A stretch of DNA of 64,000 bases. It comes from Capitulum mitella. Lineage: Eukaryota > Arthropoda > Thecostraca > Pollicipedomorpha > Pollicipedidae. This document shows, piece by piece, positions 13,141-57,027 of this stretch. Where the stretch lies: the NCBI GenBank assembly GCA_030062745.1, contig CP099853.1:4501634-4565633 (forward strand). The letters are read 5' to 3'. A model generated the notes under the pieces. The model did not search any database. It was not told where the DNA came from and worked only from the letters and a program-made list of their open reading frames with translations. A program made the position numbers and the translations under genes. Each line of letters opens with the position of its first letter. Position 1 is the stretch's first letter.

Positions 13141-13926
13141 TCAAGGTATAGGAGATAGGTCGTCAAGTTTGCGTGCATGTTCTCCACGGGTTCGAGAGGC
13201 TGTGATGTCCGGCGGCAGGCGGTTCCAGGACGAGGCCGCGCGGTACCGTGCATGTTCTCCACGGGTTCGAGAGGCGGTGATGTCCGGCGGCTGGCGGTTC
13301 CAGGACGAGGCCGCGCGGTACCGTGCATGTTCTCCACGGGTTCGAGAGGCGGTGATGTCCGGCGGCTGGCGGTTCCAGGACGAGGCGGCGCGGTACGAAA
13401 GAGCTCTGCGGACCACAGACAGACCGAAAGTCGGCGACTCGTAAGGCGCCGGCCGCCGACGCCCGGGTGGCACGCTGTGTAAGTCTATATGTAAGTCTGT
13501 GTAAGACACAGAGCTACGTGGAGTGAACAGGGACCGGACCGCCACCGGAGCACGCATGTCGTTCAGGGCTCGGAAGACACCAGTGCTGTCGCGACTCACA
13601 ACTAGGTCACATACGGCGCGCCAGCCTAACGCCCTCAAGGTCGCTGACACCGAATCCCGCTTACGAGCCCCGGATACGATCCTTTCCCCAAAGTTCACCA
13701 CCCTATGAGTTCTTCTCAGTTGGCACGACGCGGCCCCGCCCCAGACCGAAAGGCAGTGAAGGATGTGGGGGAAAACATGTGACTGGATTAGGAGTGTGAC
13801 GACTTCGGGTGTAAGGAGGTGACGTATCTTATACAAACAGAGCAGGATGGAGCTGCACTTTTTGGTAACCTTGGATATGTGCTCCTCCGACTGGGAAGTG
13901 CACAGTTCTCTTGGCATCATGCACAT
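13141..13926 (-). pseudogene. C-terminal end of a non-LTR retrotransposon reverse transcriptase
   Basis: The - strand frame (261 codons) matches the region after the RT catalytic core in CR1/L2-type elements: HISKVTKKCSSILLCLYKIR, a VWGG motif, an ALGW motif and a final FSYRA-like plus WNRLPPDI motif (here SYRAASSWNRQPPDI). The catalytic YADD box and everything upstream are absent, so this is a 5'-truncated insertion. The last 25-codon unit (starting RYRAASSWNRQPPDI) is repeated three times in frame, a 75-bp minisatellite at about 13,170-13,400. The right counterpart (63,240-63,640) has lost the triplication and is broken; arm 2 keeps only the part above 13,727 (56,838-57,026, +). Clade assignment is tentative. 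Confidence 0.7.
13173..13397. repeat. 75-bp minisatellite inside the RT tail, three units
   Basis: Three nearly identical 75-bp units beginning GTGCATGTTCTCCACGGGTT. The length is a multiple of three, so the reading frame of the RT remnant is preserved across all units. Confidence 0.9.
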
Positions 13927-14830
13927 CTGGGTGAAAATTCGGAGTTACTGGCGTTTTCCCTTCGGCTGAGATATAACAAAATCCCGTAGTAATTATTTTC
14001 CATCAGAATCGTTTGGTAATGATCATTTTCCTCGTAGGCATTGGTATAAGCAGGGAAGTTTCTGCCTTCGTCAATGGGTATCACGCTTGTTTTGTGAGGT
14101 TTTCATGCCTCGATCCTTAAAAATCGGTGAACTTGCTGCATCTGTTGTATCTGCTGTATCTGTAAACAAAAGTTCTGGGACCCTGAGCCAACTTAGGGAC
14201 GCAACTTGCCGCGCCAGTTGCCACATTAGAGCGTGCGTTTTACACGGCCAACAAGAACCTGCCGACGCAACCGACAAGCTATTGGCAAAACCGTCCAGAA
14301 ACGGAGGCTCAACCGACTACGTAAGTCAAATCCCTGGGGTGTCAACCAACAGGCACAACGTTTAACTTGCCGCTGTTGTTTTCCTGGAATTTCTGTTGCC
14401 TTGCAGAGAAATCGACGTTTACTGAGGAAAGAAACGGGAGTACGAGATATATGCGAGCCTGTAAGACTGCGGCCTCAATTCTTATTCAGTAACTTGAGCG
14501 TAGACAACGTAACGGCATTATAAATGTCGACTAATCAAGGAAGGCATTGCACGAACCCGGCGTTGTGCATATACTGTGACTCCACAACTGGTCGCCTAAC
14601 TCAAATCAGTGAACTTCGGAGACATGGAAAAAGGACAACGAGAAAACATCCATTTATTTTTTATGGATTTAACCTAGCCGATTCTTTATGGTGAGGCTAG
14701 GTATAAGAGTGATATGACTAGGTATATGACTGGCACTAACAGGTCTGTGTGACAGAGACAGCACATCCAATTGTGCAAAGCAAATAGAGAAACTACGTCG
14801 AATACCCTTGGTTGTAATGCTGTTTTTCTC

Positions 14831-15780
14831 AGCTTGATGAAAGGCTGCCTCTAAGAATCAGTCGGTTGTTGAAGCGTCAGGACATTATCACCGTTATGGT
14901 CGAGGTGAAGCGTTGGGTCCGCGCAGTAATTCATGCTTCATGACTCGTCTCGTCTTGCGAGATTATCAGAACTTCCAGAGGAAATTTTTTAAAGGAAATC
15001 ATTTTTTTAATACTGTTAAAATCCTAACGTTACCCCAAGTCGTGTCATCATGACGTCTGTGACATTTTGCTGCCTCTGAAGATCGTTCGCCATTCGCGGA
15101 CAGATCAAGAGATATATGGGAGCAAAGTTGGTATGAGATCACTGGAGACGCACTGTAGGCCCCATTACTCAGGGGCGGAGGAAGAGGGACGAACGAAGGG
15201 AGCCTTCGCGCCTGCCTTGGGCACCCTGTGGAGCTACCAATTCGTGCTGAGGTTTAACAGGTTGAATATATTGAAGAACGAGAAAAACACAGAAAAGAAG
15301 GGGAAGCGTGTCGCCTTTCATGAGGACCTCCGACATGTCAAAGGTACCCACATCCCTTGAAACAGTCCTGAATCCACCCCTGATGCCCCTGAAGTATTAC
15401 GTAATGGATATTCATGTGAATAGCTGTGTTCGGCATAGATCTGCATGATCATCTAAAGCTCTTCAGAACACACGAATTACGCGGGAATCTGAGGCCAAAC
15501 TGAAGCGGTCGGACGACTTCGTGGGCAGCTGTCCTCACCTTAGGCGACAGGCCACGGAACCCGCGTCCAAGGTCGCACGCTACCTTCTCATCGTCGCCCG
15601 CCGAGCAGCACCCGCCTCCTGCGCAGGGGCAGACCAAGGAACAGAACTGGGGAGGCGGGAACCCATTCACAAAACGAGAATAGTGCATGCAGACCTCCAG
15701 ACCGGTTATGCTAGGCCTGCACTCACCCTTCCTAGTAACAGTCCTAGCGCCACCCCTGCGCCGAATTTTGACGCAATGCG
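14831..15780. other. 5' flank of P450 copy 1, no gene seen
   Basis: Reverse complement of about 55,000-55,900 in arm 2. It holds short open frames only (for example 15,521-15,859) whose translations show no domain. Presumed to include upstream regulatory DNA of the P450. Confidence 0.4.
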
Positions 15781-15795
15781 CATAAAAGCGGCAGT

Positions 15796-15842
15796 TCAGT
15801 GTGGTCGTCGCATCCTTGATGGCGCGACGCACAGCACAGTAA
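15796..15842 (+). promoter_or_regulatory. Candidate initiator (TTCAGTG) and short uORF upstream of P450 copy 1
   Basis: TTCAGTG at about 15,795-15,801 fits the arthropod initiator TCAGT and is kept in copy 2. An ATG at 15,819 opens a 7-codon uORF ending TAA at 15,840-15,842, about 30 nt before the P450 ATG. In copy 2 this ATG is ACG, so the uORF is absent there. No conserved TATA box was found. That transcription starts here is inference. Confidence 0.25.
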
Positions 15843-15872
15843 ACAAGGCCGCACACTGACGTCGCTTGCACG

Positions 15873-15966
15873 ATGTCGACGCTCTTCGCTGTGGCCGCTG
15901 TCGTGTCGTTACTGGTGATATTTCTGTGGGCCCGAAGGCCCAAACGACCGCCAAATTTTCCACCAG
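15873..15966 (+). CDS. P450 copy 1, exon 1 (membrane anchor)
   Basis: Starts with ATG at 15,873 and encodes 31 codons plus one base: a hydrophobic stretch (roughly residues 5-19), then basic residues and a proline-rich hinge ending PPNFPP. The donor reads CAG|GTGAGC. The same exon of identical length is in arm 2. Too short to be recognised from an open frame alone; it is supported by its reading into exon 2 as PPGPSTF, the canonical P450 hinge. Confidence 0.85.
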
Positions 15967-16057
15967 GTGAGCCCGTTGGATGTGCCTTCGCTTCAAAGCC
16001 GTAGCAACTCTGGAAATTCCGTAATTAAATGATGTTCTGGCTTTTTAATTCGCATTA

Positions 16058-17263
16058 GACTAGGGGTGGCTGCCCCGTGAAATTTTCCCAAGATTGCGAG
16101 AGAACAAACAAACGTAGCGTCACGAAACTTTGTGTACTCTGCTTGGCCATTTTTGCACTTCGTGTCACATTTGTGACCTCAAGTCAAGTCAGGTGTGTGA
16201 CCTACGTTAGCCGAAGTGGACCTATGTCCAAGAGCGCTTAACACCCCGTAACGTTTTCGGAAAACAAGGTATCACTGTAAAGATCCTAAATAAGAGGGAT
16301 CTTGATAAATGTAACAAATTTGTTATCTCACATTTTTCGGAATGTTACGGGCCACTGACCTAAGATGAACCCCATTTTTAAGAGATGTGGTTGTGTTTTT
16401 GGACGTCGACCATTTCTAATCACTTTTTTAGTATGAAGTGATGCAGACATCCCGGTACCTTCGATGGACAAAGTATCAATGACTTTCAGCCATTGACCTG
16501 ACGTCAGGTGACGAATAACTGTTATGAGCCGAAATGCACTGCAGTCAAAATCGGCGATGAATGACTCAGAACGGTTAGAAAATGGTAGAAATGGCCCGCA
16601 AAGTCGCGAATCATACCAAGAAGCTCTAAAAGTTTCAAAAAGTGCTTATTTTGTCCATAAACATTTTCGCGAATAAATCTCTGTCAACTGTGTAGATTGA
16701 TAATTACTCCGTTTTCCAAATTTAAGCACGAGAAACTATCACAAGGGTCACTACAACTGAGAAATGTAACATGAAAAGTCCTGTATCATAAAATAAAGAT
16801 ACGATGAAATTAGCTCCCGTTAATTTCATATGGCGTTTGGCTACGGCGACCGCCGGTTGTCAGCGCGAAAATCGCCGTGTTTTTAACTGAACGTTTGCCG
16901 TATATATGAAACAAATCGGAGAAATTAGGGATGCATCGGCAACTGCGGACTTTTACCTGTTCATTGTTGCCTTTACCTAGACGTTATTAATGACGGCCTT
17001 TGAAATCTAGGCGGCTTTTCGTTTTCATGCTGTCGGCTGTGAGAAAACGTATATAGGGTGGAAATGGCTTAAATAATATCCAAAAGCAAAAATGAGGCCA
17101 GTTTCGAGCTTGACTTGTCACGAACTTCCTAACGGCGTGTTTATTTTTTTTCGTGCGACCAGCCATTCGTGAGCTAGAGATTGCGGTCAACCGCCGCCTC
17201 TAACTCACCGAGCGTAGTTAGAGGAGCGTGATCGGCGCCGACTGCCAGTCGGGCGCGGGTTAA
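16058..17263. mobile_element. TTAA-type MITE, family B, inside P450 intron 1
   Basis: The right end is intact (GCGCGGGTTAA, TTAA at 17,260-17,263) and matches the terminus of the complete family-B copy at 58,548-59,772; the left end (about 16,058) has lost the outermost TTAACCC. Arm 2 has the same insertion at about 53,755-54,745, there truncated at the other end, so it entered before the duplication. It contains the 18-bp perfect palindrome TGACCTGACGTCAGGTCA at 17,354-17,371 just outside its right end. No coding capacity. Confidence 0.65.
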
Positions 17264-17606
17264 GCTGAAACGTGCATATATGATGCGTCATCAGAAATGA
17301 ATGACAAATGCACTTCATTTCCATTTTGTCGCATATTCCATTTTGTCACCAACTGACCTGACGTCAGGTCACTGACCCTTCACAAACGGTATGTTACATC
17401 ACTTAAACGCATTAGACGATTTGTGTGCCATTTCTCGTCCATCAAAACAGCCTCCTGCACATGACAATTTCTAGCAGAAAGACCAAAGCACCGTCTCAGA
17501 ACGGTTGACCTGAGATCAGGCGAAACAATTTCCAGACAAATTAAGAAGGTACGTTTGGTAGAGAATGTGCTGAAGATTAGAACAGCGTTTTCCTGTTGTC
17601 AATTAA

Positions 17607-19788
17607 AGGTTTACACGGGGCGGCCAGTCGTTCGTGTGGCCGGCTATAGCCTATGGCCAACGGGGCGGGCGGCTGCAAAAACCCAGCAAAGCATGGCTGC
17701 GGCTGTGGCCACGGCTGTTGTCTGGCTAAGGATGACACACAAAATTTAGCAGATGCTGCTATATTCTAAACTTACCTTCACACTTTCTGCCATACCCAGT
17801 ACGTAATAACAAAATTCTATGGCGTAAAATAGGAAACACAAACACCATATGTGCCATAACTCATTACTTTCACAACTTATCTGAGATAAAGGAAAGCTGT
17901 AATGCAGATGATGCACAAGGGTAAGCAGTCAACTATGAACAGAATGAAATGGAAAGGCAGAAATTAGCCACTTTATTCTAATGAACAAGCTACATTTTCG
18001 CCAGATCCTGAAAAAGTACCTTCAAGCTTCAGTCCTGTGTTGAACGTTTGGTTAGATACCTAGCTACCTAGGTAGTTAATTCTGTAAAGCTAAACAAATT
18101 CCAGGCTTCATCATCATAGGTATCTTTGTATGGCAGTGCAATATGTTACAGAGGGGAAGGATGGCCTTGGTTCTGCTAGCCCAGTGCCTACCAGCTATTT
18201 ACTCGACAAAACATCAGAATCTCAGTCCCATAGGGCAAGTGGGTAAGTGTCCCAACTACCTAGGTAGACATCTAGACAGCCTACCTTGACTTGTGCCTCT
18301 TACGCCATGTGATTTTTGATAAGCCCTATACGTACCTTTTGCCTAAGAATGTGACGCAGCCAGCTTTTTGCGTTACGTTTGCAACTAGTGTGCCTTATCT
18401 GAATCTTTGCTCGCAATTTTTGAAAATATCCCTTCTAAGAGGTAGAAAAATATTTGGATTGTTGGCCGAGTCTTTTTAATCCATAATATTTGTGGAATAT
18501 GAAACAATGGAACAAAATGCTCTTCGGTTATGTTATACAAATTGACATTTATTTTTATAATTTTTCTAGCAAGTAATTCACACATGAAGTGCAATATACT
18601 GCATGTCATGTGTCTTTTCTTAGAGCTTCCGTATCGTCCTAACAGACATTTAAACCGCATCTGCGACATTTGCAGAAACCCATGAAATTTTGCAATAGAA
18701 GCTTACGACGCAGATCACTGACTGACGTCCGACGAGACACAGGACTTGACCAAAGACCTTGGACACCTGGTCCAAGAGGCTGTGTGCCCTAACTCACAGA
18801 CAGACAAACAAGCAATAGAAGCTTGGTTAGGTAACGTCAAATATCAATGATTTTTGTGTCACTCCGCTGTTAACTCTACGATGGCTTCCTGTGAAACCTC
18901 AGTGAGCCACATTTTATCATTTTCCGAGGTTGCTGTTCCTTAGTTGTGTTGGTTGATGTTGGTCAGAACCTTGTAGTGCTTGCTGCGGTTGCTGATTGCT
19001 ACAGGCTTTTTCTGGTTGGTAAAGATTATTCTATTATGAACGTAATGATAGCTGTATGGTCATGAAGACGACTTGTACTGCATTTTGGGCGACTCGTTCT
19101 CCTGGTAAGTTATGGCTTGAGTCTCTTGATGCAGTCAGCCAGACTTATTTAGGACGGTAGGCAGGCAACGATGCATGCATTTTTAACTGTGGCTACTGTT
19201 ACTGTTACTGTTTAACTGGACTGTACCTACCTACCTACCTACCTACCTACCCAATCAGTTTCGCAAGCCATTTTCCAGGAAAGGTAGTCCAGGTGGTAGG
19301 TTAACAGGGCCATGTTAATGTTTGGGCACATTGCTGCTATTGTTTTCAAGTTCTGAGTTTTGGATAATTATGGATAAACTTGGTAAACCATGCATGTACC
19401 TATGGCTAGTTTCTGAAACTCAGACAGTTCAGCCAACTTGCCTATGATAAGAACAGAATAAGTAGGCTGAATTGCATTTAAACACACATGGATGTCAAAG
19501 AGAAAAGCAGGATTAGAAGTGGAAAGATAAGTAACCAGTTAAGTGGTAAGATGCAGTCATTTGGTAGGTTTTGTGGTGCTGCAGCTCTGCTGTTCTTTCA
19601 CATGATTCATATTCAAGCGTCACCTTACCCTAGAAAAGGTGTTTTCTTTGAATGAAATTTTGAAAGAAACTTACACGGTTGGCCAACGGCTGACTGATGG
19701 ACCTGTGGGTAAGGCTGCGGCTCGCTGGGGCTAGGTTGCTATAGCTGTGGAGTGGGGCGGCTAAATAAAAATACAACCGTGTAAACCT
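17607..19788. mobile_element. Unclassified 2.2-kb TIR element in P450 intron 1 (arm 1 only)
   Basis: Starts AGGTTTACACGG and ends CCGTGTAAACCT, a perfect 12-bp terminal inverted repeat. Arm 2 lacks it: at the matching point arm 2 reads (reverse complement) TTTTGTCAGTACCTC, whereas arm 1 has TTGTCA before and TTGCCAGTACCTC after the element, with a few extra bases on each side. Subterminal regions contain repeated GGCGGC/GGCTGCGG and GGCCAACG motifs. It contains a (CTAC)n run and no recognisable transposase, so it is probably non-autonomous. Superfamily unknown. Confidence 0.7.
19223..19252. repeat. (CTAC)n microsatellite
   Basis: Seven consecutive TACC/CTAC units in the TIR element of the P450 intron. 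Confidence 0.9.
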
Positions 19789-19852
19789 CTATTGCCAGTA
19801 CCTCTACTGAACAATACCTGGAGCACGCTTTAACGTTTCTTAATGCTATGCG

Positions 19853-20260
19853 TAACCCTGTTCCCAGAGGGCTAGACGGTATGGCCGATTTCCGGCAGGG
19901 TGCGGATTCGATGAGTTGATGATTCCTCTGAGATGTCTAGAGCTACACATCGGATTACCGCAACGGATTTGCCATTACGTGAACTACACTTTTATAAAAA
20001 GATGTTTTAAAAATTTTGAAATGGGTGGATACAGGAGAGCAAAAATCGAAATTGTAGATTCTTTTGGACTTGTTATAACTCTGTTGATTTTGAACTGATT
20101 TTAAAGAAATTGGCATGAATCGAGAACACACAAATTGGGCTTTCATCATGGCCCATACATCTGAAATTTTGAGAAAATTCATAGACGTTCACAGGGTTGT
20201 AAAAATGGAAGCATTAGTTTTCCAAAAACTGATCTAACGAAAAGTTTAGCTGGCGGAACC
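19853..20260. mobile_element. MITE family A, left-end fragment, in P450 intron 1
   Basis: Begins GTAACCCTGTTCCCAGAGGG, a worn form of the family-A left end (TTAACCCTATTCCCGGAGGG), then the family-specific GGGCTAGACGGTATGG and GGCATGAATCGAG. It breaks off at about 20,260, so the right end is missing. The same truncated piece is in arm 2 at about 52,975-53,376, so the insertion and truncation predate the duplication. Confidence 0.7.
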
Positions 20261-21085
20261 ATAGTCAGTATCCAGAGAGTGGTCTTTCTCAATTCATTGA
20301 AGATTAAGAAGACTTAAACAAATGTGCAAATGAAGCTGCAACAGCTTGTGGCTTACGCATACAGCAGATTGGACCTTACCTCCGCTACATAATACCCTGA
20401 GCATACAACACCCTCACGAAGATTGTATAACACGTATCATCGCAAAGAACGCCAGATCGTTTACGAAAACGGACGAGGTGCAGTGAACCCTGTGCACGAT
20501 ATTGGTTTCCAGTCTGGAAAAATGCCGAAAGGGTAAAGTTGCCCGCATGTAGTTATTGTTTTAGATGCTTATTGGCACGCAGTCATCGGAAATAATCAAG
20601 ACAATTACAAGGAAATTGGCACGTGGTGAGCGCCCACAGTCGATTTGCGATACGAGCTGGTTGCTTCGTTAAATGATCGTCAATGACTGCGCACGCTTCT
20701 TCGCACTACCACAAGCAAACACGGTGCCAGCATGACTCAGAATGTACGGGAAAAGTTATGCCGGCAACCTGACCTTCCTCTGCGGAGCGCAAGTCCTGGA
20801 GCTTCGACGGAAGTAACCTGCGCGTTGTGTACAAAGTGTGGTGAAAAAGCATTGAACATTATTTTTGACCGTGTTTTATTGATTGTCATTTGCCTTACGC
20901 GACTTTCTCTTCGTGGCAGTGGTAGTTTTCGGGTTTTTGTGCTCGGTAGGAATGGCACTCATTTCTCGAGAATAACAGACCGAATATTATGACACCAACA
21001 CTCGGTTTGTCTTCGCGTGTGTCAACGGGCTGACGTTGTTCATGCGGAAGAATTCCTTTTCGTGACTGTTTTTCTTCATTTCCAG

Positions 21086-22475
21086 GTCCTTCAACATTCC
21101 TCGTGTTTGGAAACCTAAAGGAGACGATAGAAGCCATTCGAGGAGAATTTCCCGCAATGGTGAAAAGATGTCGCAAGGAGTTCGGAGACATTTTTGGTCT
21201 TTTGTCCCCTGACGGTACCAGGATACTTCACTTGTTGAACTTCGACGACATCAAAGACGCCTGCGGAAGGCCGGAATTCTCCGGCAGACCCAACTCTTTC
21301 GCGTTTCTCGTGCGCAGCTACCAGCAGAAGCTGGGCATCGTGTTCAGCGAAGGCCCTTCCTGGAGCGAACACCGACGCTTCGCCTTGCGCCACCTGCGCG
21401 ATCTCGGCTTCGGCAAGAACTCGTTGGAGTCGACTGTCCTGGATGAGTTCGAGGAGGTCGCGAAGGAGATGGAGCAGGCCGTCGGCTCGCCGATGAAGGT
21501 GAACTTCCGCTTCAACCTGACGGTGCTGAACATCCTCTGGCGGCTGGTCGCCAGCAAGCGACTAGACAGCAGCGACCCGAAGGCGCAGATATACATCGAC
21601 ACGGTGAACGAGTTCGTCACGACGATCGGGCCGAGTAACCCGATGAACCTGGCGCCGTGGCTGCGCCACCTGTTCCCCGAGTGGAGCGGCTACGCGCCGC
21701 TGATCCGGCACCGCGAGACAACCGCCGGCATGTTCCACGAGTTGGTGCGCGAGCACGCCGAGACGCTGGACCGCGCCAACCCGCGCGACTTCATCGACCA
21801 CTTCCTCCTGGAGATGGAGGCGCCCGACGCCGAGCGGCGCGGCTTCACCGAGCTCAATCTGGGCGTCGTCGGCATGGACTTCTTCATCGCCGGCATGGAG
21901 ACCACGTCCACCACACTAAGCTGGTCGCTGCTGCTGATGGTGATGCGGCCGGACGTGCAGCGGCGTGTACAGCGCGAGATCGACCAGGTGCTCGGCGGCC
22001 GCCTGCCGTCGTACGCCGACCGCACGCGCATGCCGTTCACGGAGGCAACCCTGATGGAAATCGCGCGTTTCTGCCCGGTGGCTCCGCGCAAGGCGTGCCG
22101 CACAGCACGATGGAGGACACGTCGTTCCGCGGCTACAACATCCCCAAGGACACGGTCGTGACCATGCACATCGAGGCGGTGCACCACGACCCGACGCACT
22201 GGGGCGACCCGGAGGTGTTCCGGCCGGAGCGGTTCATCAAGCCGGACGGCGCGGTCCGCCGCGACGAGTGGCTCATCCCTTTCGGCATCGGGAAGCGGTT
22301 CTGCCTGGGCGAGACGCTCGCGCGCATGGAGCTGTTCATGCTGTTCACCTGCCTGATGCAGCGCTTCTCGTTCGCCGCGGCGCCGGGCCAGCAGCTGACG
22401 CTCGAGACCCACTTCGCCTTGGTGCAGCAGCCGAAAGAGTTCTTCGTTACCTACACTCTCCGCGACATGCAGTGA
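21086..22475 (+). CDS. P450 copy 1, exon 2 (catalytic domain, frameshifted)
   Basis: Holds the whole catalytic domain from the proline hinge (GPSTFLVFGNL) to the stop TGA at 22,473. The acceptor is TTTCCAG with a pyrimidine-rich tract. Reading is open to the AA insertion at 22,090-22,091 and then continues in the +2 frame. GC content is far above that of the intron. Compared with copy 2 I count about two dozen amino-acid differences, none in AGMETT, EIAR, PERF or FGIGKRFCLG. Confidence 0.85.
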
Positions 22476-23620
22476 TCCCAATCCTGTGGCGGCAGCAGGA
22501 GGCTGCGCACTCCGCAACTAGCTACCTTCATTGTGCAGCAGCCGCAGGATCCGATGGCCTTCGCGACCAGGGTAAACCTTCATTTTGTGCCACCCACAGG
22601 AACCTAAGGTCTCTGCAACCATCGGCGAAATTTGCTCTCTGACAGCGGCAGTAACCAAATCCACCGCGGTCAGCACTAAAACACCACGTCTGCCATTGAC
22701 AGTATCCTACAGCTGAGCGACCAGCAGTGACCTTTTGCGTCGGCGGAAGAAACATACAACTTCTACGATGAACGGTAGGCTTCATTCTGTGACAGTCGCA
22801 GTAACCAACACCCTCCGCAACCAGCGACGACCTGCATGCAACAGCCGCACCTATTGACATTCACTGCAGTACGCCGTATCATCCGCTTCCCGTGAACGGC
22901 AGTGACATGCAACCTCTGCAGCCAGTAGCCTTCACTCTGCGGCAACCGCAGTAACTTGTACCAATCAAGGTCAGCAATGTCATCGTCTCTCTGTCAACCG
23001 CAGTAACATACGCTGTTCGTAGTCACAGACAGTCCACAGTGTTAGCCAATGGCGAGCGACAGGTAACTGATGTCTTCGGCGGGCTCCGGGACCCCAGTGA
23101 CTGAGGAGGAGCTCCAGGGTCACGGACTCTTCAGCAACGATCACGGACGACATCCGTGAGCGGCAGAAACCTGACAGCTCAGGGCCACGCATGTTTGGAG
23201 CCCGTGATTCGTCGGCAGCTGGCTGCCCGTTCGGTGTTTAGGACAGCATGGGAGGCCGCTGGCCAAGTGCACCTATTCCACCGCTTACATGCCGGTTGGC
23301 AGCCTTTTGAACTCGTGAGCAGGTACTGTTGAACTTGGAAAATTGCACTGATCTGACGGAAACATTGAACGAGAAAGGGCATAAATGATTGCTACTGTTG
23401 TGGCCAGCGGTGACGCATCATGTTCTTTAGTGCTGCCGATTAAGTGATGCAGATTTTGTCGTTTTAAAGGAGTCGCCTGTAACATCGTCTGCTTCCATCT
23501 CTGGTCATGTCAAACACTGGAAAATATCTACGCTGCTTGTTCTACAGTTTGTTTCTTGAGTGACTGAAACGACTGAATCCATGCAGTGGCGTAAATTGTG
23601 TGATTTTAGAGATGTGCGCG
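22476..23620. other. 3' flank of P450 copy 1 with degenerate GCAGTAAC repeats
   Basis: No gene. A loose phrase (CTTCATTCTGTG...CAGCCGCAGTAACC...) recurs several times at about 22,570-23,010. Arm 2 has a shorter version (about 50,360-50,745), so repeat number differs between arms. The 3' UTR and polyadenylation site could be here, but no clear AATAAA was found. Confidence 0.4.
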
Positions 23621-24206
23621 TTTTAAAATGCCGTCCAAAATATGAGGAGAAAACGGCAAAGAAGACAGCAGGTTATCCCGCGCAGTTGAAGGGGGTTTCG
23701 TGCTAACACACACAGGAAGGGGGGGCACAAAATTGCGCCCTCCGTTATCGGAAACGGAAAAAGGTAGAGACATGACATTTGATGGACGGGATGTGGGGCT
23801 AGATCGATCTACATTGCGTGCAATTTTCATGACCCTAGGTCGATATCTTCAAGGTCAAATGGGGTCGAAAATGTCAAATTCTGATGCCTTCTCAGACCGC
23901 ACTGGCTATTCAGTACGACTTTTCGAATGAAACGGGAAAAGGATGTTTGCTTGAGCGTTAAAACGTGGAATACGGGAACTTCCTTTCATTTTGCGCCTTG
24001 TTTGGGGATTTCGGGTCGACGTCATGTCGGGGCATTGACCTATGGCGTTATTTTTTCATCTTTTGCAGATCAGATTTCGAGCAACACGGGATAGCTCCAG
24101 TGTAGATAAGGTCTCCACACATATCTTTTGGCGTATTTTCAGTGAAGGTAGCCAACATCGGTACATTCGGTCGCTTCCAGCGTTCATATTTATCTATGTA
24201 TGTATA

Positions 24207-24207
<1 letters not shown>

Positions 24208-24250
<43 letters not shown>
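24208..24250. repeat. (TA)n microsatellite
   Basis: A TA run of about 40 bp. Arm 2 at the matching place (about 49,600-49,640) has only a decayed CATATATACATA, so the run expanded or shrank after duplication. Confidence 0.9.
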
Positions 24251-24252
<2 letters not shown>

Positions 24253-44544: not shown

Positions 44545-47060
44545 GTTGTCAGTAGTGAAGCATAATTATGAAGCTTGTCGACTATTGCTTGGACTTTTTG
44601 CCTTAACCATATTCTCTGCAGGCAGTGAGATTCACATTACCCTGGGGGGGGGGCAGATCTGCGGTAATCTACCTTTCGGCCGACGCTTACGCGTAATTTT
44701 TGGAGACGCGGAAGTGGCAACACAAGTTGTGTGAACAATTTAGCCCATTCAGGTATTTTTCGAAGCACTGGCCCCTACTTGATGTGTGAACTGACTTGGT
44801 TAGGTAACTCTTGAATTTTGATTCAGTTGACACATGTTTGCCTTCAGCCGATACGAGCTAACCAAACCAAAAAACAGGCAAATTGAACCTAACAAAAAAT
44901 TAGTTTTACATGCCCATCTGGGGCAATCCCTGCAACCATACAGTAGGTTTTAGGTTAGGTTAGGTTAAATCATTTTTGACTTGGAGGACAGCCTACATTG
45001 TCCATGCGATTCGAGTCACCACTCCTGCGTTCCCGAAAAAAATATCAACTGGCCGAAACACCTTTCGCCTGACACATTATTTTTTGTAGACGCAGAAGTG
45101 AGGACCCAAACTCAAACATGATATGAGCCGTTGCCACTTTTGCACCTTCGAAAAATATGCATTGGCCGAAAGGTGAAGATTACCAATTCTGCCGCCTCCC
45201 CTTCCCTCCCCGCCCTTCCAGAGATCTCGAGATGCATTCGTCCAATGTTGATGGAATAAATGCCATTTAATATGTTTCAACGAGATCTCGAATTCCAGAC
45301 CCCAAAAACTCAAAAATTGCAAAAATAGGGCGTGGGGGCAAACAAACTCCAAAATTTCGGGATTTTGAAAGGCCACTGCGGCCGTGTTTACCAACCAATT
45401 TTGATGGGAATAACACGGCTCAGCTTGAAATGTCCAAGTCTTTTATATACCGAAAGCTGAAATTTAAAACAGAAAACCATAGGCAGTTCCAGGGAGGGCA
45501 GAAAGGGTGATTTTTGAAATAAGAAATTTCCTTTGCTTTTGTTTGTTTTGGGTGATATCAACATCAGATGTACAACTAGCAAGCCAGTTTAAGTTTATAT
45601 GTAGCGAAGAGGTGGATCCAGGTAAACAAAATTGGGAGGGCACCATAAGCACAATAGTGTGCTCCCCTATTTTTTCAGTACCTGGGTGTGCGTTCGCCTG
45701 AAAATGTGTGTGCATACGCATTGTTTAGGATGTGTATGACTATATAAATGAGTCAGTGATCTTTATTTCTACTCAGAATGTCACGATAGTGAACCGCACA
45801 TCTTTGCAGCTTCACGCACAGCAGATTACCGCCGAAAACGGGGGCTTGGAACCGCCTCTGCGGGACCGATTTTTTTTTAAATGTTGACAAAACACTTGTG
45901 TATCAATTCCATGAAATGCCAGAAAATCTTGTGGCGCTGCGGCAAACAGTGTGGGAGCGACAAGCAAAAAGACACGGGTAGCACAATCTGCCCCCCCCCC
46001 ACAGGGAATAGGGTTAAATGAAGTGTTTTTAACCCGTCTCCGGCCGGGCTCAGAATGCCCTTTGCCCGGCCGGAGGGGGAGCGCGGATTTCCGCACCTCC
46101 CAGGATCTCGGCTCCCAGATATCGCACGGAAAAAAGGAAAACACCGGCGGAAAGGTTTTGTCAAACCGAGACGAAAACATTCAAGAGTTTTGACCTCAGA
46201 CCAATTTTGAGGCCACCAGACGCCATGAAAGGTCAAAACACGTTCTTGGAATTACGTAAATAGACACAATACCCTGTCCCTGAAAAGCTGAACTTAAGCG
46301 GCATATACTGAACCGTAAGACAATAGCCAGTTCATTGATATCAATTTTGGCCTTTCACAGGGGTCAGGTCAGGTCACGTCATCGTTCCAAAATGTTCCAC
46401 TTGTGAACGGCTAACATCCTCCGTTGCATCTTACTTATGACCATGTTTTTATAGCTAATTTGTCTTTTCAAGGGTGCTGAAGAGGTATTAAAGCACCTTT
46501 TTTAGTCTTTTATTTCACAATAATAAAATCCATATCAGTCATGTTTTTTTGAGTCCTTCGTCGTTTGGTATTAAAAAAACGTCAGGGGTATCAGGAATCT
46601 TACCTCCACGCACGCGCTCGTACACAAACTAATACACACATATAATTTCAAAACAAAACAAGAAGTTCGCGAGACCGAAACGAGCTCTGAACGGAGACCA
46701 TTATGTTCAGGGCGGATACTTCGAGAGGCATTGTTGATCAAACCCAGTCGATAGATGTCCGCCGTTTGTCGCATTTTGCATGCGTCCGCTCCAGCGCCGG
46801 TTGTTCCCGCTCCGTCGGCGCCGCGGGCAATGAACAGGAATTCGTTGGTTTGAACATTGTGGCTAACACAGTGGTAGAATACCCGCCGCGGCTGTTGTCC
46901 CGGCGCCGCCGACTCTACAACGGCTGGTGAGGGCAGTGGGCAGCTAGCGTAGTGTTTTGGGTAGGAGCTTTTTGTTTCTTCCCTTTGTATATGGAATGCG
47001 TTTTACAACCACAAAGCAGCATAAAAGACTTAAAACCCGCGTTCATTTGGTTTTCACCGC
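44545..47060. other. hAT interior: non-coding, with further TTAA-type ends
   Basis: Contains a G run with CAGATCTGCGGTAATC (44,646-44,673), and two more TTAACCC-type termini back to back: CAGGGAATAGGGTTAA ending at 46,017 and TTTTAACCCGTCTCCGGCC beginning at about 46,028, the latter with a large GGCCGGGC/GCCCGGCC foldback. Short open frames here (45,077-45,394, 46,703-46,930) have no recognised domain. Confidence 0.4.
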
Positions 47061-47064
47061 ATTT

Positions 47065-47195
47065 AAAAAAGTAACGGAATAACGGAGTAACGGTAACTTC
47101 CGTTACTTTTTAAGGCAGAGTAACGGAGTAACGAGTAACGGACTGGCTTTTTTGAGTAACGGAGTAACGAGTAACGAAGTTACATTTTTTAGTAA
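47065..47195. repeat. hAT right subterminal AGTAACGG motif array
   Basis: AGTAACGG and its complement recur about ten times, mirroring the left array. Confidence 0.85.
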
Positions 47196-47209
47196 CGATG
47201 CCCACCTAT

Positions 47210-47210
<1 letters not shown>

Positions 47211-47288
<78 letters not shown>
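47211..47288. repeat. (TA)n microsatellite flanking the hAT
   Basis: About 76 bp of TA, the longest in the window, abutting the right end of the hAT element. Confidence 0.95.
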
Positions 47289-47290
<2 letters not shown>

Positions 47291-48860
47291 ACCATGAAAA
47301 ATATTACGGGACAAAACATAACATCGGGAAAATGCCGTATGACAAAATATCGCCATGTTTTACTTTTTATCATCGTATCAAGGTCGTACTAGGTACCATC
47401 GCATCAGGGAGGTATAATAGGTGGGCGGGTATAGAATGGCTAACTTTCCCATTGCAAAATATGCAGTGGGACACTATGTAGCAACTAAATACCTCAGAGA
47501 TTGAATATTGCAACAGGACAAGATCCTGAATGTAAGATAGTCCAGATTTCCGTCTGTCAAGATCTCGAACGGAAATCAAGTCTCAATTGTTCGAACATTT
47601 CCACTCCTTTCCAAATGGTAACCGTTGTTCACGGATGCGGTAATCATCACGGCACCTCGCCGGCGACTGGCGGTATTTTGTACAGTTTCTGTATCAGAGA
47701 GGCAACGGAAAATATTTATAACTCACTGCCCTGCGTTGTTACCTCGTGAAAGGTTGCTGGCAACAAGAATCATAGTTTATCATCAAAAGACCACTGGTAA
47801 AAGAGAAAGAATTTTTACGTCCAGCACTCGAACACCGCATATTATTCGACGAAAAATGTCATTATTTTTGCAGCCACACCATCAATTCCAGGGCGCAAAC
47901 AGGATATTTGTCCGGTCGGTTCAGTGGTTCAGTAGCATAAAAGTGGTTCAACACTCCCTTGAAACTATTACAATATTCATTTTAGAAAACTCTATCTAGC
48001 TAAATACCTCAGGCATTTGGGAGATGACGTGCAATCCTTGGAGAAGTTTCACGGCGTGACTGCTAGGATGCCACCCGTTTTCGGGAGAAGTCCTTTCCTG
48101 CACCCATCGTGTTGCTCTATATGGCGTCTTGCAGTATTTTTCAGTTAAATATTTAGCCTGTCCGTTCTTGATTCCTGCCCTAATGCTATGTCATTCAATC
48201 ATGTATCATTTGATATAAAGCCGGTTTACACTTTTGCTTCTTCGTTGTATCTCTTAAACATTCTCTATGTTTGTGTCTTGTTCACCATGAATGTGTTCAT
48301 GTTGAACACATTCCTTGTTTTTTATTGTATGCTTTGTTCGACGATTCCTTTTTTTATTTTTTTCGGTTTTCTACATTAATCTCCAGATTGATAGCTGGCA
48401 TTCCAAATTTTTCCCTCTGCAGTATAGGCCCGTCCTGTATTCGTTGTTTTTTTTGCAACCTTTTGCATTTCAAACCAAATGGTATTATGTCCGATAATCG
48501 TACGACGCATACTAGCAAATCTGGTTCCACGTCTAATAAAGTGGCTGATTTGGGAACATCAAACATGCATCAAAAGCTTATAGGCCAAATGAGGTCAAAC
48601 AGCATGTCATTTCGCATTTCAGTGCGCTCTAAATTTATTGAGTTGGTGTAATTAAAATGAGCTTATGCTCAATGTAAAGCAGGCGTGTGTGGAAAACGGC
48701 CATTTTCAAGGAAAAATGCATGATTTGAAGAAGGCGAATTCTTCTGAATCAAACCAGTCACGAATATCACGGTCCTCTTTCCCGGGTTTCGAGGATGCAT
48801 TAAAGATAATTATGATTTTTACTAGCGCAGTCTTTCTTTACCTTTAAGACGCGCACTGGA
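47289..48860 (-). repeat. Arm-2 copy of the arm-1 25.0-26.6 kb repeat; unassigned ORFs
   Basis: Mirror of about 25,030-26,635, with a third relative at 8,266-9,290. Several frames stay partly open in more than one copy (25,394-25,726 on - and 48,188-48,379 on + share the start MSFNHVSF, a Phe/Leu-rich stretch; 26,165-26,416 and 47,501-47,749 share SLNCSNISTP). None matches a family I know. It may be an old transposon body. Confidence 0.4.
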
Positions 48861-49139
48861 AGAGGGTCTTTTTGTGTCCCCAGCTGTTTTTCCTGAATAT
48901 CTCGAGAACGAATCGGAGCTGGCAGCTGCCACCTTGTGACGTTTTTGGCAATTAGATAACTCGTCGATTGACTCAGAAAAATCGAAAACTGCCCAAAAAG
49001 TTTTGAGGTTTCAGGCTTTTGTAGTCACGCAAACATAACTGAAACGACGGTTGGCGCTGACAAATGGGAACTTTGTGAAAGAACCAGCGTCCTATTTAAG
49101 ATTGCTGTTTGGACACAATTATGCGACGTCATTTGAGCA

Positions 49140-49620
49140 TAAGTGTACCAACAAAAAAGCAAGGATTTATAACGGTCAAGGTCATCAAAGGTCAAGGCCA
49201 CACAGCTTATAACCTAATCCACATTTGCTTTGCAACATGTCGGTTTGTATGAAATATGCATTTAAAGACCCAAATAAAAAGACGTGTGCGCACACAGATA
49301 CGTTTCAAAACAGCGGGGTCAATAAAGGTGAAGGTCATTAAAGATCAAGGTCCAATATGTTGGACCTGCTCCAGATTTGTTTTGGAACATGTCGATTTGT
49401 ATGAAATATATATTCAAAGACCCTGATAAAAAGACGTGCGCACGTGGATACGCTTATATGTATATACCACGGTCATTTCAGATCAACATCACAAAGGTCA
49501 AGGGTAACTTTTTGTGACCTGGTCCAGATTTGTTTTGCAACATGCCGATTTGTCTGAAATGCGCATTCAAACATCCTACTAAAGCACGTTTTGGACATTG
49601 ATACTCACATTTATATACAT
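49140..49620. repeat. 152-bp degenerate tandem repeat, arm 2
   Basis: Mirror of 24,286-24,710. Units share AAACATGTCGATTTGT.TGAAAT.C.CATTCAAA and carry AAGGTCA hexamers. Confidence 0.75.
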
Positions 49621-50748
49621 ATATACATACTCATGCACAGATAAATATGAACGCTGGAGGCGACCAAATGTACCAATGTTGGCTACCTTCACTGAAAATA
49701 CGCCAAAAGATATGTGTGGAGATCTTATCTACACTCAAGCTATCCCGTGTTGTCAGAAATCCTGATCTGCAAAACATAAAAAATAACGCCATAGGTCAAT
49801 GACCTGATATGACCTCGACCCGAAATCCCCATCCAAGACGCAAAATGAAAGGAAGCTGTCGCATTCCACGTTTTAACGCTAAAACAAATATCCCTTTCCC
49901 GTTTCGTTCCAAAAGTCGTACGGAATACCCTGTACGGTCCGAGAAGGTGTCAGAAGTTGACATTTTCGACCCTTCTTTGCAGTTTTCTCCTCATATTTTG
50001 GACGGCATTTTAAAAGGCGCACATCTCTAAAATCACACAATTTACGCCACTGCATGGCTTCAGTCGTTTCAGTCATTTAACAACCAAACTGTAAAACAAG
50101 CAGCGTAGATATTTTACAGTGTTTGACATGACCAGAGATGGAAGCAGACGATGTTATAGGCGACTCCTTTAAAACGGCAAAATCTGCATCATTTAATCGG
50201 CAGCACTAAAGAACATGATGCGTCACTGTTAGTCACAATAGTAGCGATCATTTATGCCCTTTCTTGTTCAATGTTTCTGTCAGATCAGTGCATTCTTCCA
50301 AGTTCAGCAGTACCTGCTCACGAGTTCAAAAGGATGCTAATCGTCATTTAAGCGGTGGAATAGGTGCACTTGGCCACCGGCCTCCCATGCTGTCGTAAAC
50401 ATCGAACGGACAGCCCATCACCAGCTGCCGACGAATCACGGGTTCCAAATATGTCTGGCCCTAAGCTGTCAGGTTTCTGCCGCTCACGGATGTCGTCCGT
50501 GATCGTTGCTGAAGAGTCCGTGACCCTGGAGCTCGTCCTTAGTCACCGCAGTCCCGGAGCCCGCCGAAGACGTCGATTACCTGCCGCTGGCTGTAAGGCA
50601 ACGCTGTGGTCTGCCTGTGATCACGAACGCTATGTAATACTATTAGTTACTGCCGCTGTCAGAGAGCAAATTTCACCGTTGGCTGCAGAGGCTTTAGGTC
50701 CCTGTGGGTCGCACAGAATGAAGGTTATCGCTGGTCACAGGACTGGGA

Positions 50749-52138
50749 TCACTGCTGGTCGCGGAGGGTGTAGGTGACGAAGAACTCTTTCGGCTTCTGC
50801 ACCACGGCAAAGTGGGTCTCGAGCGTCAGGTGCTGGCCCGATGCCGCGGTGAACGAGAAGCGCTGCATCAGGCAGGTGAACAGCATGAACAGCTCCATGC
50901 GCGCGAGCGTCTCGCCCAGGCAGAACCGCTTCCCGATGCCGAAGGGGATGAGCCGCTCGTCGCGGCGGACCGCGCCGTCGGGCTTGATGAACCGTTCCGG
51001 CCGGAACACCTCCGGGTCGCCCCAGTGCGTCGGGTCGTGGTGCACCGCCTCGATGTGCACGATCACGACCGTGTCCTTGGGGATGTTGTAGCCGCGGAAC
51101 GACGTGTCCTCCATCGTGCTGTGCGGCACGCCGCGCGGGATCGCCGGGCAGAGACGCGCGATTTCCATCAGGGTCGCCTCAGTGAACGGCATGCGCGTGC
51201 GGTCGGCGTACGTCGGCAGGCGGCCGCCGAGCACCTGGTCGATCTCGCGCTGCACACGCCGCTGCACGTCCGGCCGCATCACCATCAGCAGAAGCGACCA
51301 GCTCAGCGAGGTGGACGTGGTCTCCATGCCGGCGATGAAGAAGTCCATGCCGACGACGCCCAGATTGCGCTCGGTGAAGCCGCGCCGCTCGGCGTCGGGC
51401 GCCTCCATCTCCAGGAGGAAGTGGTCGATGAAGTCGCGCGGGTTGGCGCGGTCCAGCGTCTCGGCGTGCTCGCGCACCAACTCGTGGAACATGCCGGCGG
51501 TTGTCTCGCGGTGCCGGATCAGCGGCGCGTAGCCGCTCCACTCGGGGAACAGATGGCGCATCCACGGTGTTAGGTTCATCAGGTTCTTCGGCCCGATCGT
51601 CGTAAAGAACTCGTTCACCGTATCGATGTACTTTTGCGCCTTCGGGTCGCTGCTGTCTAGTCGCTTGCTGGCGACCAGCCGCCAGAGGATGTTCAGCACC
51701 GTCAGGTTGAAGCGGAAGTTCACCTTCATCGGCGAGCCGATGGCCTGCTCCATCTCCTTCGCGACCTCCTCGAACTCGTCCAGGACAGTCGACTCCATCG
51801 AGTTCTTGCCGAAGCCGAGGTCGCGCAGGTGGCGCAAGGCGAAGCGCCGGTGTTCGCTCCAGGAAGGGCCCTCGCTGAACACGATGCCCAGCTTCTGCTG
51901 GTAGCTGCGCACGAGAATCGCGAGAAGGAGTTGGGTCTCCCGGAGAATTCCGGCCTTCCGCAGGCGTCCTTGATGTCGTCGAAGTTCAACAAGTGAAGTA
52001 TCCTGGTACCGTCAGGGGACAAAAGAACAAAAATGTCTCCGAACTCCTTACGACATCTTTTCACCATTGCGGGAAATTCTCCTCGAATGGCTTCTATCGT
52101 CTCCTTTAGGTTTCCAAACACGAGGAATGTTGAAGGAC
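50749..52138 (-). CDS. P450 copy 2, exon 2 (catalytic domain, frameshifted)
   Basis: Opens at the acceptor TTTCCAG|GTCCTTC on the - strand and ends in TGA. It contains all catalytic-domain motifs. Here the segment that is broken in copy 1 reads cleanly as EIARLCPAIPRGVPHS, which locates the copy-1 insertion exactly. Confidence 0.85.
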
Positions 52139-52974
52139 CTGGAAATGAAGAAAAACAGTCACGAAAAAGAATCCTTCCGCATGAACGTCAGCTCGTGGAA
52201 TGATGCGAAGACAAACTGAGTGTTGGTATCATCATATTCGGTTTGTTATTCTCAAGAAATGAATACCATTCCTACCGAGCAACACCCGAAAATTATCATT
52301 GCCATGAAGCCAAAGTCTTCACAAGCACCGCGTAAGGCAAATGCGAATCAATACAATACGGTGAAAAATAATATGCAATACTTTTTCAACACACTTTGTT
52401 CACAAAGTGCACGTTATTTAGGTCGAAACTCTAAGGCTCGCGCTCCGCAAAGGAAGGTCAGGTTGTCGGCATAACTTTTTCGGTACATGCTGCGTCATGA
52501 TGGCATGGTGTTTGCTTCTAGTAATGCGAAGAAACGTGCGCAGTCATTTATGATCATTCAGCGAAGCAACCAGCTGGTATCGCAAATCGATTGCGGCGGT
52601 GAACATCATGCTAATGTCCCTGTAATTGTCTTGATTATTTTCGACGACTGTGTCCCAAAAAGCATCCAAAACAACTACTGAATACGCGCAAATTTACCAT
52701 TGCGGCATATGTCTAGACTGGAAGCCAATATCGTACAGGGGGCACTACACCTCGTCCGTTTTCGTAAATGATCTGGCGTTCTTTGCGACAATACCTGTTA
52801 CACAGTCTTGGTGAGGGTGTTTTCTGTTCGCGGTGTTATGTAGCGAAAGTAAGAGTTAATATGCTGTATGCATAACCCACACACTGCTGGAGCTTCATTT
52901 ATACATTCGATGAAGTGCTTCAATAAGTTGAGAAACGACCATTCTCTGGAGACTGACTATGATTCTGCCAGCGA

Positions 52975-53376
52975 AGTTTTTTGCTGAATCAGTTTTGGAA
53001 AAAAACTAATCCTATTTTGAGAACCCTGTGAACGCCTATGAATGTTCTCAAAATTTGAGATCTTTGAGCCATGATGAAAGCCCAGTTTATAATCTCTCGA
53101 TTCATGCCAATTTCCATTGAAATCAGTTCAAAAACAACAGAATTATGAGACACCCAAAAATATCTATCATTTTAACCTTTTTGCCCTCCTGTATCCCACC
53201 CGTTTCAAAATTTTTAAAACGTTTTTTTTTAAAAGTGTAGTTCACGTCATGGCAAATTGATTGCCGTTTGTTGCGATGAAATCCGATGTGTAGTTCTCGA
53301 CATCTGAGGGGGGGGGCCGAATCCGCCCCCTGCCGCGAATCGGCCATGCCGTCTAACCCTCCTGGGACAGGGTTAA
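52975..53376. mobile_element. MITE family A, left-end fragment, in copy-2 intron
   Basis: Reverse complement of 19,853-20,260; ends GGGACAGGGTTAA with TTAA at 53,373. Same truncation point as in arm 1. Confidence 0.65.
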
Positions 53377-53754
53377 GCACGGCATTAAAAAAAAACGTTA
53401 AAGCGTGCTCCAGTGATTGTTAAAGAGAGGTACTGACAAAAGCAATACGCTGTTCTCATCTTCAACCCATTCTCTACCAAATGCACCTTCTTAATTTGTC
53501 AGAAAATTGTTTCGCCTGACCTCAGGTGAACCGTTCTGAGACGATGTTTTGTTCTTTTCGCTAGAAATTGCCATGTGCAGGAGGCTACTTTTATGAACGA
53601 GATATGGCATACAAAACATCTGGTAAGTTTTTTAAGTGATGTGATGTACCGTTTGTCAACGGTCAGTGATCTGAGGTCAGGTCAGTTGGTGACAAAATAG
53701 AATATGCGACAACATGGGAGTGAAATGCATTTGCCATTCATTTCTGATGACGTA

Positions 53755-54745
53755 ATAATTTAGGAAACATTTTTGCTTTTGGATATTATGCAAGCCATTT
53801 TTTAGACATTTCCATCGTATATACGTCTTGTCACAGCCGACTGCGTGAAACCGACAAGCGGCCTAGATCTCAAAGGCTGTCATTAATAACGAACGGCAAC
53901 AATGAACAGGTAAAAGACCGCAGTTGCCGATACATGTCTAATTTCTCTGATTTAATACATACGCCGAAACACTGAGTTCAAAACACGGCGATTTTCGCTC
54001 TGACAACCGGCGGGTGCCGTAGTCAAACGCGGTATGAAATTCACGGCAACTCATTTCGTGTAACATTTCTTAGCTGTGGTGGCCCTTGTGATAGTTTCTC
54101 TCGCTTAAAATTGGAAAACTGTAGTAGTCATCAATCTATACAATTGGCACTGCTTTTATCGCGAAAATGTTTATTGCCAAAATAAACAATTTGTGAAAGT
54201 TGTTGAACTGCTTGGTATTACTCGCAACTGTGCGAGCCAGACATACCATTTTCTACCCGTTCTGAGTCATTCATCGTTGATTTTGACGGCGCTGCATTTC
54301 GGCTCATAACAGTCATTCGTGACCTCACCTCAGGTTAATTGGCTAGAATCGAGGGTAACGGGACGTCTGCATCACTTCATATCAAAAATATGATAAGAGA
54401 CATGTCTTAAAAATGGGGTTGACATTGCGTCAGTGGCCCGTAAAATGCCGAGAAATCTGAGATAACAGATTTGTTGCATTTATCAAAATCCCTGACATGA
54501 CATCCCTGACATGGTATTTACTGTGATATCTTGTTTTCCGAAAACCTTACGGGGCGTTAAGCGTTTTTACACATAGATCCACTTAACCTAACATAGGCCA
54601 TACACCTGACTTTACCTGAGATCAAAAATGTGACACAAAGTGTAAAAATGACTACGCAAAAAGTACACAAAGTTTCGTAACGCTACGTTTGTTCGTTCTC
54701 TCGCAGTCTTGGAAAAATTTCAAGGGGCAGCCACCCCCAGTGGTG
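53755..54745. mobile_element. MITE family B, fragment, in copy-2 intron
   Basis: Counterpart of 16,058-17,263; the GCGGGTTAA end is deleted here, at about 53,755. Confidence 0.55.
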
Positions 54746-54831
54746 CGAATAAGAAGCCTGAACACCATCTAATTACGAATCTTCCAGAGTTGCTACGGCT
54801 TTGAAGAGAAGGCAGATCCAACCGGCCTCAC

Positions 54832-54925
54832 CTGGTGGAAAATTTGACGGTCGTTTGGGCCTTCGGGTCCACAGAAATACCACCAGTAACGACACGACAG
54901 CGGCCACAGCGAAGAGCGTCGACAT
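54832..54925 (-). CDS. P450 copy 2, exon 1 (membrane anchor)
   Basis: 94 nt from ATG (54,925-54,923) to the donor CAG|GTGAGG. The protein differs from copy 1 at only three positions (I/V, A/T, P/S). Its 5' flank keeps the TTCAGTG motif but not the uORF. Confidence 0.85.
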
Positions 54926-56620
54926 CGTCAAGCGACGTCCGTGCGCTGCCTTGCTTGCTGCAATGTGCCGTCAAGGATGCGACGACCACACTGAACTGCC
55001 GCCTTGATGCGCATTACGTCGAGACTCGGCGCAGGGGTGACGCAAGGACTGTTACTAGGAAGGGTGAATGCAGGCCTAGCATTACCGGCCTGGAGGTCTG
55101 CATGCACTATTCTCGTTTTGTGAATGGGTTCCCGCCTCCCCAGTTCTGTTCCTTGGTCTGCCCCTGCGCAGGAGCGGGTGCTGCTCGGCGGGCGGCGATG
55201 AGAAGGTAGCGTGCGACCTTGGACGCGGGTTCCGTGGCCTGTCGCCTAAGGTGGGGACAGCTGCCCACGAAGTCGTCCGACCGCTTCAGTTTCGCCACAG
55301 ATTCCCGCGTAATTCGTCTATTCTGAAGAGCTTTAGATGATCATGCAGATCTATGCCGAGCACAGCTCTCCACATGAATATCCATGGCGTAATACTTACG
55401 GGTCGGCAGGGGTGGATTCAGGACTGTTTCAAGGGTTGGGGGTACGTTTGACATGTCGGAGGTTCTCATGAAAGGCGACAAGCTTCTTCTTTTCTGCCTT
55501 TTCTCATTCTGCAATATATTGCCTGTTACACTTCAGCACGAATTGGTAACTCCACAGGGTGCCCAAGGCAGGCGCAAAGGCTCCCTTCGTTCGTGCCTCC
55601 TCGTCCCCTCCCCCGACTAATAGGGCCTACAGTGCGTCTCCAGTGATCTCATACCAGCTTTGCTCCCATATATCGCTTGAACTGTCCGCGAATGGCGAAC
55701 GATCTTCAGAGTCAGTAAAATGTCACAGACGGCTTGGTGCCGGGGCTGGGGGTAACGTTAAGATGTCAGCAATCTTAAGAAAAAAGCAGAATGCCTTTGT
55801 GTGGAAGTTCTGATAATCTCGCAAGACCAGAACGGTCATCATGCAACAATTTCTCTGCGGACCCAACGCTTCTCCTCGACCATAATGGTGATAATGCCAT
55901 GATGCTTCGACAACCGACTGATTCTTAGGGGCAGCATTTCATCGAGCTGTCAAAAATAACAATAAAACCAGGGGTATATGATGTAGTTTTTCTATTTGCT
56001 TTGCCTGATTGCATGCTGCTGTCTCAGTCATCCAGCATGTTGAGTGCCACCCCTTATCCCTAGCATCACCAAAGCAAATCAGCTGGATATGATCCATTAA
56101 AAATAAATGCATCTTTTCTCCTTATCATTTTTCCATGTCTCTTAAGGTCACTGCTTAGAGTTGGGTGACCAGTTGTGGAGTATGACGTCACAATATGTGC
56201 ACAACGCCGGGCTCGTGCAATGCCTTCCTTGATTAATCCATATTTATAATGTTCTTACATTGTCCACGCCCAACCTACTGTATAACAACTGAGACCGCAG
56301 TCTTACAGGCCCGCTTTCTTTCCCCCACAAACGTCGATTTCTCTGCCAGGCGACTGAAATTCCAGGAAAACAACATTGGCGAGTTAAACTCTGTGCCTGT
56401 TTGTTGACACCGCAAAGGGGTTTGACTTACGTAGTCGGTTGAGCCTCCGTTTCTGGGCGGTTTTGCCTATAGCTTGTCGGTTGCGTCGGCAGGTTCTCGT
56501 TGGCTGCGTAAAACGCACGCTCTAATGTGGCAACTGGCGTGGTAAGTTCCGTCCCCATGTTAGCTCAGGTCTCCAAACTTTTTGTTCACAGATAGAACCC
56601 AGATGTAACAGATACAACAG
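54926..56620. other. 5' flank of P450 copy 2, no gene
   Basis: Mirror of 14,100-15,872, including one copy of the small inverted repeat (about 55,965-56,420). No recognisable coding region. Confidence 0.4.
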
Positions 56621-57027
56621 ACATAACAAGTTTATCGATTCTGAATGATGGAGGCATGAAAACGTGACAAAATACGTCTGACACCCATTGACATAGGCAG
56701 AAACTTCCCTGTTTAATACCAGTCCCTACGAGGAAAATAAACATTGCCAAACGATTTTGATGTGAAATAAGTACCACGGGATTGTCTTATACCTCAGCCG
56801 AAGGAGAAAACGCCAGTAACTCGGAATTTTTACCCAGATGCTCATGATGCCATGAGAACTGTGCACTTCCCAGTCGGAGGAGCAGAAAGGGTTATCAAAA
56901 AGCGCAGCTCCATTCTGCTCTGTGTCGGATACGTCACCTCCCTATGCCCAAGGTCAGGACACTCCTAATGTAATGACATGTCTTCCCCCACATCCTTTAC
57001 TGCCTTTCGGCCTGGGGCGGGGCATGA

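Follow-up and report, generated by a model that had tools for sequence, protein, structure and literature searches.

Two cytochrome P450 (P450) genes face each other in mirror order in a stretch of 64,000 nucleotides from the barnacle Capitulum mitella (contig CP099853.1, our C15, positions 4,501,634-4,565,633; hereafter the window, in whose coordinates positions are given). Do they record a palindromic amplification, as an initial annotation had proposed, or a different rearrangement? We consider it highly probable that the mirror stretch derives from an old P450 tandem array of three copies, whose middle unit has been flipped. One of the mirror copies (B below) is taken to be an inverted unit of that array because a flank block is repeated directly, a transposable element (F1) is split between the two ends of the unit, and a third P450 copy lies in direct orientation. 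The analysis covered the window together with 60 kb on either side (184 kb together) and searches of the genome (477 Mb, 16 contigs); for C. mitella, 16 chromosomes are reported, with scaffolds totalling 482.98 Mb (PMC8416341).

Mirror arms within a probable direct array

Comparison of the window with itself by BLAST returned an inverted chain of nine segments, several with E = 0, running from 13,733 and 57,023 inward to 31,934 and 32,810. This mirror match is far beyond chance and defines two arms:

13733..31681, plus strand: arm A, the remainder of unit A after X1; inverted match to arm B, direct match to unit C up to 23,598
32810..57023, minus strand: arm B, the inverted middle unit; inverted match to arm A

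Between arm A (13,733-31,934) and arm B (57,023-32,810), 11.6% of the 12,548 gap-free aligned positions are mismatched, with values of 8.9-14.1% in the nine segment alignments, and without the P450 exons the mismatch is 1,394/11,066 (12.6%). The same nine alignments contain 94 gap events, only two of which fall in exon 2. Since each arm carries private insertions (F1a and a 2.2-kb insert in A, F1c and a Helitron in B), the arms have long been separate. The initial annotation had thus recognised the point changes all along the arms, the independent transposon insertions and the long separate existence, which the divergence of about 12% and the different transposons gained bear out, and its outer ends (13,727 and 57,026) are correct to within a few bases. 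It also described about 18 kb of shared reverse-complement sequence: the mirror copies are present, but of an 18-kb arm they share about 12.5 kb. Mirror order, which it extended to the flanks, holds for both P450 copies and not beyond the arms, where the mirror match stops at 13,733/57,023, the outer flanks have no mirror homology, and one flank block, X, is repeated directly:

9393..13732, plus strand: block X1, which forms the upstream part of unit A and recurs in direct orientation at 57,137-63,630
57137..64000, plus strand: block X3 with the beginning of unit C, interrupted by F1d/F2d at 57,942-60,363

X1 and X3 align in five direct segments (the start of F4 included) over 3,030 columns with 11.5% mismatch, which equals the divergence of the arms. 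The first 550 bp of X have 14 matches in the genome, and only X1 and X3 cover it whole; the other 12 are copies of a dispersed repeat that reach its last ~175 bp only.

An array with an inverted unit implies that a third, plus-strand P450 should lie past the right edge of the window. This copy was predicted from the array reading before the flanks were fetched, and it was found on the plus strand at 65,653-70,033. In the 184 kb, tblastn with pieces of the P450 (E up to 1e-3) detected exactly one copy besides A and B. Unit C extends beyond the window to about 71,162, and units A and C run collinearly in the same direction (9,393-23,598 against 57,137-71,162), the arrangement of a tandem array. 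These data do not support a palindromic duplication as the origin of the locus; the direct flank repeat, the split F1 and the direct third P450 all point away from it.

A split element and a proposed order of events

The ends of the inverted unit are marked by pieces of F1, a family that we take to be piggyBac-like from its ends. F1 copies have a TTAA target duplication and CCCT...AGGG ends, which F1c and F1d fit approximately. Positions 107-1228 of the element lie at the centre, beside B, and positions 96-1 lie reversed at the outer end of B, beside X3 (57,026-57,115); the inner end of A carries positions 1228-977 of a further F1:

31683..31934, minus strand: truncated F1 (element positions 1228-977), at the inner end of A
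31935..31948, no strand: inversion junction 1, 14 bases, sequence read directly
31949..33064, plus strand: larger F1 part of unit B, F1 positions 107-1228
57026..57117, minus strand: inversion junction 2 and the other part of the F1, positions 96-1 including the TTAA end, beside X3

When the interval 31,935-57,029 is inverted back, the parts fall into a direct array, X-A, B-F1 and X-next copy, and the two F1 parts come to lie between B and the right X with 10 bases separating them. The 14 extra bases of junction 1 contain AGAACT, a hexamer that recurs in F1 near both breaks, so joining by microhomology is possible at this junction.

The distances outside the exons argue in the same direction. 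In three non-exon alignments, they are 0.144, 0.170 and 0.145 for A-B, 0.121, 0.135 and 0.123 for A-C, and 0.131, 0.163 and 0.172 for B-C. A-C is hence the smallest in three of three, and B is never closest to A, suggesting that B is neither a late nor a fold-back copy of A.

We propose the following order of events as the simplest. The ancestral unit would have run from X through the promoter and the two exons with their intron to a tail ending at an F1 element, and at least three such units would have stood in direct orientation. The copies would then have diverged and gained transposons, mostly under purifying selection, before the middle unit inverted through breaks in the F1 of unit A (~977) and that of unit B (~96-107). 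The remainder of unit A's F1 would have been lost, as would unit B's own X block (X2); a single inversion event with the loss of X2 would account for the structure. Last, A and B would each have gained a 2-base frameshift, C keeping its open frame. The outcome would be that A facing B reads as a palindrome, followed by the direct unit C.

Several observations weigh against this reading. X2 is not seen and its loss must be assumed. The match of unit C ends at the equivalent of 23,598, so that C bears on the outer half of the arm only; rooting with a distant relative (L024, below) does not separate the possible branching orders of the three copies, with 3, 5 and 8 shared derived sites; and the two junctions and the two frameshifts are as read from the assembly. 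To the left of X1, the segment 8,254-9,290 is 69% identical to 25,031-26,163 and is followed by 59 bp (to 9,368) that match the inner end of A at 75%. This might hint at an older unit left of X1; the hint is weak because the segment is a dispersed repeat with 64 matches, and we make no claim of such a unit.

Fold-back or template switching, in which B is an inverted copy of A arising from a single replication error and inserted in A's F1, would produce the same order of parts with no need to lose X2, and a single F1 could then have supplied, as its two sides, both the remnant in A (1228-977) and the outer fragment (96-1). Such an origin predicts that B is closest to A; however, A-C is the closest pair outside the exons, B-C is the closest within the exon (0.032 against 0.042 for A-B), and the landing points 96 and 107 would have to match to 10 bases by chance. 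With flank X also direct, we rejected palindromic (fold-back) amplification as the main reading and regard it as improbable. We give marginally less credence to an assembly artefact, with a misoriented middle piece or a chimeric read creating the junctions. The region is repeat-rich, and three genes or elements are frame-broken as assembled; yet the surrounding 184 kb contain no N, the junctions lie inside elements and have no long overlap, a place where overlap assemblers seldom join, and a single broken F1 accounts for both ends.

The initial annotation had offered, as its alternative, two diverged haplotypes joined head to head. Very heterozygous animals exist, and a synonymous divergence (dS) of 0.08-0.09 is within the range reported for the most extreme ones. 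This explanation is nevertheless strongly disfavoured, to the point of being barely credible: the haploid assembly holds three copies in three places, not two, with every pair similarly diverged, X is direct, and the arms are finite, their mirror homology stopping at 13,733/57,023 with unmirrored flanks outside. Mismatches of 11-12% and about 25-33 amino-acid-changing differences between copies are moreover high for alleles. Taken together, the inverted unit of a direct array remains the reading that we favour.

State of the three P450 copies

Each arm encodes a two-exon P450 of the CYP2 clan, a label that rests on PF00067, motifs and the closest solved relatives:

15873..15966, plus strand: exon 1 of P450 copy A, encoding the MSTLFAVAAVV... 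anchor; a GT donor follows 15,966
21086..22475, plus strand: P450 copy A exon 2, PF00067 in both frame pieces, aligned with B, C and L024
54832..54925, minus strand: P450 copy B exon 1
50749..52138, minus strand: P450 copy B exon 2, PF00067, aligned with A, C and L024
65,653-65,745 (exon 1) and 68,646-70,033 (exon 2), plus strand: P450 copy C, beyond the window, from tblastn

Exon 1, which encodes a membrane anchor of 31 residues, runs to a GT donor (15,966 in A; 54,832 in B); exon 2 is a single block of ~1.39 kb after an AG acceptor. The Pfam scan covered A and B, with PF00067 matching copy B at E 2.2e-98 and the two frame pieces of copy A at 7.1e-60 and 6e-38, and copy C was recognised by tblastn alone. 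P450 enzymes are marked by the haem-binding motif FxxGxRxCxG, an AGxxTT-type helix and ExxR, and all three copies have FGIGKRFCLG, AGMETT and ExxR in their aligned codons. The best PDB matches are family 2 enzymes (CYP2B, 2D6, 2C). Exon 2 DNA has 13 matches in the genome: A, B and C at 96-100%, all on the contig of the window and within about 49 kb, and then a next-best match of 71% on contig C3. The distant relative L024 (C3:31525401-31526536) is ~71% identical; its exon 1-like sequence is joined directly to exon 2-like sequence, and it may lack the intron.

As assembled, the frame of exon 2 is broken in copy A, before the haem-binding cysteine, by two extra bases private to it near 22,088-22,091, and in copy B by a private 2-base insertion near 51,925-51,929. 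Both insertions are absent from copy C and from L024, and we infer that they are real rather than assembly errors. Only C combines the absence of a premature stop with a GT donor and an AG acceptor, features that A and B fail to combine as assembled, and C would be the working gene. The interest of the locus as a gene-dosage mechanism, raised by the initial annotation, is weakened accordingly: A and B are each frameshifted, and C alone is open.

Over 490 codons, the ratio of nonsynonymous to synonymous divergence (dN/dS) is 0.35 for A-B, 0.26 for A-C and 0.27 for B-C, with dS of 0.076-0.088, and the exon 2 distances are 0.042 for A-B, 0.041 for A-C and 0.032 for B-C. Private changes divide into nonsynonymous and synonymous as 15.5:15.5 in A, 13:11 in B and 7:12 in C; as a sign of relaxed selection in A and B relative to C, the difference is not significant (p = 0.42). 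We considered gene conversion of exon 2 in view of the 4.2% divergence between A and B, against 12.6% outside; a dN/dS of 0.35 with a dS of 0.084 (A-B) indicates that selection explains most of the difference. Four-fold sites are somewhat less diverged between A and B than noncoding positions (14/216 against 1,394/11,066, p = 0.005), which leaves room for some conversion or codon constraint. Upstream of the P450, only 9 of 300 aligned bases differ between A and B in the block 15,441-15,741, against 12.6% for the noncoding arm, suggesting that this block is likely a constrained promoter or 5' leader. The block (15441-15741 / 54990-55348) is also much alike in C.

The exons of A and B match C at about 96%. 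It is conceivable, as a distant prospect, that the convergent, frame-broken pair A and B now gives rise to antisense or double-stranded RNA that tunes C; if so, the inversion would be a regulatory change, beyond mere decay.

Other insertions and comparison with known P450 loci

The remaining insertions and their occupancy in the two arms are as follows:

29059..30281, plus strand: F1a, piggyBac-like non-coding element, A only; TTAA; terminal CCCTTTTCCCGG...CCGGGAATAGGG
41861..43089, minus strand: F1c, piggyBac-like, B only
17602..19788, no strand: 2.2-kb insert in the intron, A only; ends GGTTTACACGG...CCGTGTAAACC
27240..28013: F2a, A only, from comparison of A and B by eye
34797..40868, plus strand: Helitron of ~6.1 kb, B only; TC...CTAG ends, then T
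43515..47233, no strand: insert of ~3.7 kb in an AT microsatellite, B only; ends CATAGGTGGGCA...TGCCCACCTATG

The empty site of F1a in B is exact, a single TTAA, and those of F1c and the Helitron in A are approximate; the other empty sites were compared by eye only. The 2.2-kb intron insert of A is absent from both B and C. The Helitron is assigned to its class from its ends and its Rep/helicase domains (Helitron_like_N, E 2.8e-53; PIF1, E 5.5e-54), and its Rep/helicase frame is in three pieces as assembled. The G+C content of its region is about 65-70% at 36-40 kb. The 3.7-kb insert of B may be hAT-like. Transposons are nested in X3, where F2 (58551-59769), a TTAA-flanked repeat, lies within F1d. 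Between F1c and the shared arm, B carries a 119-bp sequence twice (41520-41758, 96-97% identity), not seen in A. A minus-strand frame (13141-13944) resembles by eye the C-terminal end of a non-LTR (long terminal repeat) reverse transcriptase, without a Pfam hit, and includes a 75-bp tandem repeat within its coding part. Scans for transfer RNA genes and against Rfam gave no matches, and Pfam on ten further reading frames gave a single weak match, below cut-off. In our literature search, we recognised no paper describing this P450 locus.

The locus offers a worked example of how a palindrome in one window can hide a direct array. A split transposon and a direct flank block expose the inverted unit, after which the next copy can be predicted and then found. 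It also advises caution: inverted P450 copies should not be taken as dosage amplification.

In kind, the locus is ordinary, an old P450 cluster with gain, inversion and decay. As in birth-and-death tandem P450 clusters, open and frame-broken paralogues are adjacent, purifying selection has acted, and promoter and exons are more similar than introns. Unlike in the usual clusters, the middle unit is inverted, and the copies are old (~12% noncoding divergence), with no recent gain in dosage. Inverted segments carrying detoxification genes are also found in Anopheles, where a survey of copy-number variants at detoxification loci counts tandem inversions in 2/44 and tandem duplications in 33/44 (PMC6673711); those variants segregate and were called from read pairs, whereas the locus described here is an old structure in one assembly. 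Closer to Capitulum, a study of barnacles, with 16 chromosomes in those shown against 16 contigs here, reports expansion of CYP450 by tandem duplication (PMC11331182), with which the array described here may be linked.

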